A program made the translations under genes and the position numbers. Below are positions 46,028 through 47,007 of a DNA stretch of 64,000 nt, one piece after another; within the stretch, counting starts at the first letter, position 1; every line of letters begins with the position of its first letter. The notes under the pieces were generated by a model. It saw only the letters and a list, made by a program, of their open reading frames with translations. It did not search any database and was not told the origin of the DNA. Source of the DNA: an uncultured Neomegalonema sp. (lineage in GTDB: Bacteria > Pseudomonadota > Alphaproteobacteria > Rhodobacterales > Rhodobacteraceae); the NCBI GenBank assembly GCA_937928005.1, contig CALFVD010000102.1, positions 1 to 64,000 on the forward strand. Reading direction: 5' to 3'.

Positions 46028-46162
46028 GAATAAATCCTTTTCCGAAGTCTATGCCCTACGTCACAGCCATGGGCTTTTATACGCATTATACCCTTAAAAT
46101 TGGATTTTCCGGCGAATGAACAAGCCCCATACGGTTTGTTAATGATTTTCCGTCATATTTAA

Positions 46163-46237
46163 ATGGCTTTAAGGCGCATCCCGCCTAACTTAACTTCCTC
46201 CCTGACTGGCCGTTCCCTCACCGGAGCGGCCTTTTTT
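46163..46237 (+). ncRNA. Candidate small RNA with an anti-Shine-Dalgarno tract
   Basis: The plus strand between two minus-strand genes carries, in order, a small hairpin AGGCG-CATCC-CGCCT (46172-46186), an unpaired stretch with CCTCCC (46197-46202), and a strong terminator (46208-46237). No plus-strand gene is there for it to terminate. This layout, about 70 nt with a CCUCCC loop or linker, resembles the stress-related CCUCCUCCC-motif small RNAs of Rhodobacterales, from memory of that family. TTGTTA (46136-46141) and TTTAAA (46158-46163) could be a weak promoter. Transcription is not shown. Confidence 0.5.
46208..46237 (+). terminator. Orphan plus-strand terminator
   Basis: GGCCGTTCC (46208-46216) pairs with GGAGCGGCC (46223-46231), one G-T wobble, loop CTCACC, then TTTTTT. 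It works only on the plus strand, while both neighbouring genes are on the minus strand. Confidence 0.85.
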
Positions 46238-46246
46238 CTTTCAATT

Positions 46247-46981
46247 TTAGGAAAATGTCTGACGAATTAGCGGGGCTAAACGCTCGGCCCAATCGTCTTG
46301 TTGTGCTGGCTCTACGATCAAATCATTGCGCAGTTCGATCAGCACATTGCGCAGACCACGCCAGAAGGCGTGTTGATCCAGACACTCTCCAACATTTCCG
46401 CCCAAATATGGCTCATTGACCCCTACACAAAGGGCCGGATCGCCGCGTAGCAGGTCAACCAATCGTTGTCCGCTGGCCGCGTCTGGCCCCCATAGCACAC
46501 CTGCATGCCATGGGCGTGGGGGGCGGCCTTGTAGCTGTGGCGTGAAGCTATGCAGCGAGAGGATATCGGGGCCATGCGGCGCGGCGCGGGCGATATGGGT
46601 TTCGATGGCGGCGTGGTAGGGGCGATAGCATTGGTCGAGCCGGTGCTCGACCTCCGCAGCATCGACATGGCGATTGCCGGGGATGATGGCCCCATCCGAT
46701 ATTTTCATCACCAGCGTAGGGTCATCCTCGCCCCGGTTCGGGTCGATCAGCAAGCGCGAGAACCCGGATAGGATCGCCGTCACCCCCAACCGATGCGCCA
46801 GCGCACGGGCCAATCCCGCCGTGCCGATATCATAGGCGATGTGCCGCTCGAACTCCTCCGGCGGCATACCAAGCGTGCCATATTCCGACGGCAAGGCATT
46901 AGAGGCATGATCGGCGATGATCAGCAGGCCGGAAGGTGCATCCGGGTTGATAATCTCAACGGGGCGAAAGGGTGTGGTCAT
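46247..46981 (-). CDS. N-formylglutamate amidohydrolase family protein
   Basis: A 244-residue hydrolase of the family that releases formate from N-formylglutamate in histidine breakdown. Family marks are LLIIADHASNALPSEYG, DIGTAGLARALAHRLG, SRLLIDPNRGEDD and the metal/acid-base region ILSLHSFTP. The start at 46981 is set by AAGG about 6 bases upstream; an ATG six codons earlier lacks one. No hut genes lie nearby, and many such stand-alone homologues have no proven substrate. Confidence 0.9.
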   Translation of the reverse strand: MTTPFRPVEIINPDAPSGLLIIADHASNALPSEYGTLGMPPEEFERHIAYDIGTAGLARALAHRLGVTAILSGFSRLLIDPNRGEDDPTLVMKISDGAIIPGNRHVDAAEVEHRLDQCYRPYHAAIETHIARAAPHGPDILSLHSFTPQLQGRPPRPWHAGVLWGPDAASGQRLVDLLRGDPALCVGVNEPYLGGNVGECLDQHAFWRGLRNVLIELRNDLIVEPAQQDDWAERLAPLIRQTFS

Positions 46982-47007
46982 GGGTGCCTTATGGAACAAA
47001 ATCGGCG

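Follow-up and report, generated by a model that had tools for sequence, protein, structure and literature searches.

Within the window, by which we mean the entire 64,000-nt stretch of DNA analyzed, two minus-strand genes flank a short element on the plus strand (46163-46237). On one side lies FGase2 (46247..46999, minus strand), a member of the N-formylglutamate amidohydrolase family (Pfam PF05013, 147 bits) that is convergent with the element and whose stop falls ~9 nt from the element's T-run. On the other side lies the divergent P0002 (44816..46027, minus strand), which encodes a conserved 403-aa protein with a signal-peptide-like start and no Pfam match; a scan of named genomes found its relatives only in six MAGs of uncultured Neomegalonema/Rhodobacteraceae. 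The original prediction described a plus-strand terminator between these genes with an upstream 5-bp hairpin and a single-stranded CCTCCC, and both sequence and folds confirmed this arrangement. We place the sRNA gene at 46165..46237 (plus strand), with a predicted transcript of ~67-73 nt. In single-sequence folds, it comprises the 5′ hairpin AGGCG-CATCC-CGCCT (46172-46186), then single-stranded UUCCUCCCU (46195-46203), an αR8-type anti-Shine-Dalgarno core whose CCUCCC occupies 46197-46202, and ends in a Rho-independent terminator (46208-46237; stem 46208-46216/46223-46231, TTTTTT at 46232-46237). The full linker between the 5-bp hairpin and the 9-bp terminator with its six T is AACTTAACTTCCTCCCTGACT.

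The terminator, with 7 G-C among its 9 pairs, ranked first in strength among 8 terminator-like sites across 4 kb. It also accounts for most of the better-than-shuffled stability of the surrounding 103-nt region (z −3.84; none of 200 shuffles matched it). Hairpin 1 was not significant in the window sequence alone, as 16% of shuffles were equally stable, and the mean unpaired probability of the motif was 0.95. CCTCCC occurred less often in the window than expected (21 observed vs. 34 expected), so a single sequence would prove little. No conserved plus-strand open reading frame accompanies the terminator: of five other members translated, three interrupt the 35-codon plus-strand frame from ATG 46163 after 5-15 codons, and we rejected a small-protein reading for this lack of conservation.

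Immediately upstream, a candidate promoter (46136..46163, plus strand) consists of a weak sigma-70-like pair, TTGTTA (46136-46141) and TTTAAA (46158-46163), separated by a 16-nt spacer; a consensus promoter scan did not list this pair. Overlapping it is a TTAAY element (46139-46143) that was conserved at all 12 window-type loci and at all 10 of the herA-type loci described below that were examined. At the twelve window-type loci, it reads TTAAC or TTAAT and precedes the motif by 56-67 nt, and in the ten sRNAs of other genera a TTAAY-type element precedes the motif by 64-72 nt. This position suits a −35 element, consistent with a putative role as a promoter. Its TTAACC form resembles a CtrA half-site. 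The original prediction had also proposed searching upstream for an RpoH-type promoter, and no match to CTTG-N15-19-CYATNT was found within 3.1 kb. Separately, an inverted repeat, AACAAGCC-CCATAC-GGTTTGTT (46119-46140), overlaps the promoter element; its CAAG is conserved in most orthologs, and it is a possible operator.

Among 101 genomes searched at the DNA level, other members of the genus gave matches. The window and ten genus mates make eleven genomes in which the element lies 3′ of FGase2 in convergent orientation, and P0002 adjoined the element in the genus mates wherever checked, in copies 62-92% identical. At a twelfth locus (G001), the sRNA keeps P0002 as its neighbor but lies ~1.6 kb from FGase2. 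No match was found at the sRNA side of FGase2 in G013, and the G011 contig ends inside FGase2. A covariance model of the eleven window-type sRNAs (R1) scored these members, its own training set, at 57-82 bits, including 72.8 bits for the window sRNA, and the next best match, in G001, at 38 bits. FGase2 relatives examined in other genera of the family carried no such element at that end.

Conservation among the orthologs was concentrated in the linker. The most conserved 8-column window was TTCCTCCC, at 0.94 vs. 0.60 for the 5′ part, and linker conservation exceeded that of the terminator. The expectation that the CCTCCC linker would be conserved in syntenic relatives thus held in the 11 orthologs, although two carry UUCUCCC instead of UCCUCCC, and predicted folds for three of the 11 (G006, G004, and G005) place part of the motif in base pairs. 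Compensatory changes on both sides were present in six of nine terminator pairs. In most members, the 5′ hairpin starts at nearly the same place but has a different stem, and it was clearly above shuffles in only some. Because a consensus fold of the orthologs predicted the terminator only, support for hairpin 1 comes from comparing individual folds. Taken as comparative sequence evidence, these patterns identify the element as a real, conserved sRNA gene. In two genomes, G012 and G004, the sRNA (L049:1362-1438 and L088:1565-1641) has two TCCTCCC copies, in the 5′ hairpin and in the linker. Additionally, five genus genomes have a second CUCCC-terminator element 5′ of FGase2 (L084:1511-1583, L085:1757-1828, L088:673-744, L087:949-1019, and L049:2261-2335), and in some (G004, G005, and G012) the gene is bracketed by two such elements.

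In anatomy, the window sRNA most resembles the αR8 family (RF00519, suhB/MmgR), which includes Sinorhizobium MmgR and Caulobacter SisA-D. Members of this family consist of a weak hairpin, single-stranded UUUCCUCCCU, and a terminator, and they usually but not obligatorily lie next to an FGase gene (PMC12559287). In Caulobacter, SisA acts in trans, associates with Hfq, and represses mRNAs through its 10-mer, whose pairing with the CCNA_03574 leader was proven by compensatory mutation (PMC12559287). MmgR limits polyhydroxybutyrate granules and responds to nitrogen status (PMC7143759). The window sRNA shares the weak 5′ hairpin, the downstream Rho-independent terminator, a predicted length of ~70-77 nt, a single-stranded UUYCUCCCU followed by GACU, and a tail-to-tail arrangement with an FGase gene. 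However, it has CUUCCUCCCU in place of the 10-mer (9/10 match, core unpaired at 0.95) and adjoins FGase2 rather than FGase1, a paralog only ~27% identical. It also scored just 21.4 bits against RF00519, below the Rfam gathering cut-off of 41, and the best score among the orthologs scanned was 27.7 bits. Seven other places in the same genome, plain terminators among them, outscored it, so the window sRNA would not be recognized from Rfam alone.

At gathering thresholds, Rfam gave no match anywhere in the window, and we rejected sroB, Xoo2, and other sub-threshold matches there as shared terminator text. A separate canonical αR8 in the same genome (L031, 55.9 bits) neighbors a response-regulator-like gene and FGase1, the longer of the two FGases. 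The window sRNA is best read as a new, diverged sibling of the αR8/MmgR type rather than as something categorically new, indicating that αR8-like anti-Shine-Dalgarno sRNAs in Rhodobacteraceae are more numerous and more diverged than the Rfam cut-off reveals. Elsewhere, one locus (L012, G092:C7:54432-55030) contains three tandem αR8 copies, each above the Rfam cut-off.

Outside the genus, the best R1 matches were in other Rhodobacteraceae genera. Among ten of these that were inspected, the flanking gene matched Pfam HerA_C in six, and two of those had ialB on the other side. This sRNA, for which we found no name, is present across many genera of the Rhodobacteraceae, usually in the neighborhood of herA-like (and ialB) genes, with ACUUCCUCCCUGUCAGACUGGCCGCGCC and a TTAACC promoter element, and falls below every Rfam cut-off (L123:1502-1616, L124:1467-1585, L125:1462-1579, L128:1502-1619, L129:1458-1575, L131:1459-1575, L134:1458-1576, and L135:1462-1577). 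The window sRNA has in common with it a ACUUCCUCCCUG...GACUGGCCG core, a hairpin and terminator, and, at a comparable distance, the TTAACC promoter element. By contrast, the herA-ialB type has an extra insert after the motif and, in most cases, a second CUCCUCU-like stretch within the first loop, and the window sRNA occupies a different genomic locus, at FGase2. A second model (R2), trained only on nine herA-ialB type sRNAs of other genera, scored the window sRNA at 44.9 bits (E 7e-8); since R2 includes the promoter element, part of this score is promoter likeness. Eleven of 12 distinct window-type loci scored 35-47 bits and the 12th scored 22, compared with ceilings of 34.5 bits for canonical αR8 and 32 for SorX.

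The window's genome has no herA-ialB type sRNA at its own herA gene (L182). Given this and the R2 match, the window sRNA is probably either a copy of the herA-ialB type or its ortholog at a new location, and is thereby linked to a family-wide sRNA with which it shares its promoter element. It also resembles SorX (RF02784) in its CCUCCCUG linker and GC-rich terminator. However, SorX arises by cleavage of the 3′ UTR of RSP_0847, an ompR-type gene, whereas the window sRNA is intergenic with its own upstream element and scored only 20.0 bits against a gathering cut-off of 46.6. R1 had no match at the true SorX loci tested. SorY was rejected, as its best matches were at other loci and none was in the window genome at E 0.01. 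Scores form a continuum across the αR8, herA-ialB type, window-type, and SorX groups, and a deeper homology among them is likely but not proven because short RNAs with terminators can attract one another.

The reading we consider likely is a trans-acting, αR8-like sRNA that represses mRNAs through Shine-Dalgarno pairing, probably with Hfq. The closest competitor, which we regard as unlikely, is that the sRNA acts in cis, pairing with the 3′-terminal part of FGase2 read-through mRNA so that each controls the other. The tail-to-tail arrangement conserved within tens of bases would suit such a role, as would the geometry of canonical αR8 (loci L010-L037), which was convergent with FGase1 at all 25 loci having an FGase hit within 1.5 kb, mostly within tens of bases, with one of the 25 (L030) resting on a weak hit. 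However, the G001 sRNA has kept its place beside P0002 at ~1.6 kb from FGase2, herA-type relatives are not beside FGase, and SisA acts in trans (PMC12559287). A related speculation, to which we give similarly little weight, is that αR8-type sRNAs have twice settled into a fixed tail-to-tail position beside distant FGase paralogs owing to a functional coupling, with read-through FGase mRNA containing the sRNA's entire complement and serving as its built-in sponge. If true, this coupling would link the breakdown of N-formylglutamate (histidine) to the regulon of the sRNA. The repeated pairing with two FGase paralogs is, in any case, a testable lead on αR8-FGase adjacency.

Slightly less probable still is that the locus is a terminator only, serving antisense transcription or the convergent FGase2, with no sRNA function. 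The terminator is indeed the strongest element, and the FGase2 end is very close. Yet only the plus strand carries the T-run. In the minus-strand direction AGTCAGGGAGG follows the hairpin, which disqualifies the structure as an intrinsic terminator of FGase2 mRNA. There is also no plus-strand gene to terminate, P0002 upstream being divergent, and the linker is conserved more than the terminator itself. We find it very improbable that the element is a CcsR-type stress sRNA with an RpoH promoter and CCUCCUCCC in two hairpin loops: CcsR1-4 (RSs0680a-d) do share a C-rich anti-Shine-Dalgarno motif and hairpins with it, but their CCUCCUCCC sits inside hairpin loops and they originate in the ccaF1 3′ UTR (PMC3927594, PMC8307010, PMC8625941), whereas the window motif is shorter, occurs once, and lies in the linker, with no upstream host gene and no RpoH-type promoter match. 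Tandem CCUCCUCCC pairs were absent from the window's genome, and three exact tandem hits in the genus look repetitive or due to chance. Thus, the original prediction of an anti-Shine-Dalgarno CCUCCC sRNA stood as far as a free-standing intergenic gene and an accessible motif are concerned, but its proposed kinship with CcsR did not.

Returning to the trans-acting, αR8-like sRNA, the anatomy, conservation, synteny, and kinship observed here lead us to infer that it would be transcribed, bind Hfq, and repress target mRNAs. An RNA of ~70 nt would start near 46165-46171, just 3′ of the TTAAC element, and end at the terminator, keeping UUCCUCCCUGACU open between the 5′ hairpin and the terminator. 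By analogy with SisA, the exposed CUUCCUCCCUGACU would be expected to pair with Shine-Dalgarno regions that are rich in purines (GGGAGGA-type) in several mRNAs, with Hfq probably on the U-rich 3′ end of the RNA. Such pairing would lower the translation and stability of the targets and so adjust uptake and metabolism in the manner of Caulobacter SisA. A target pattern search returned 12 AGGGAGGA-N3-9-ATG sites vs. 3 in a reversed control. These are motif matches only, which we do not claim as targets, and the Pfam names among the 12 sites included two solute-binding proteins, two AMP-binding enzymes, and ribosomal L16 and S8, among others.
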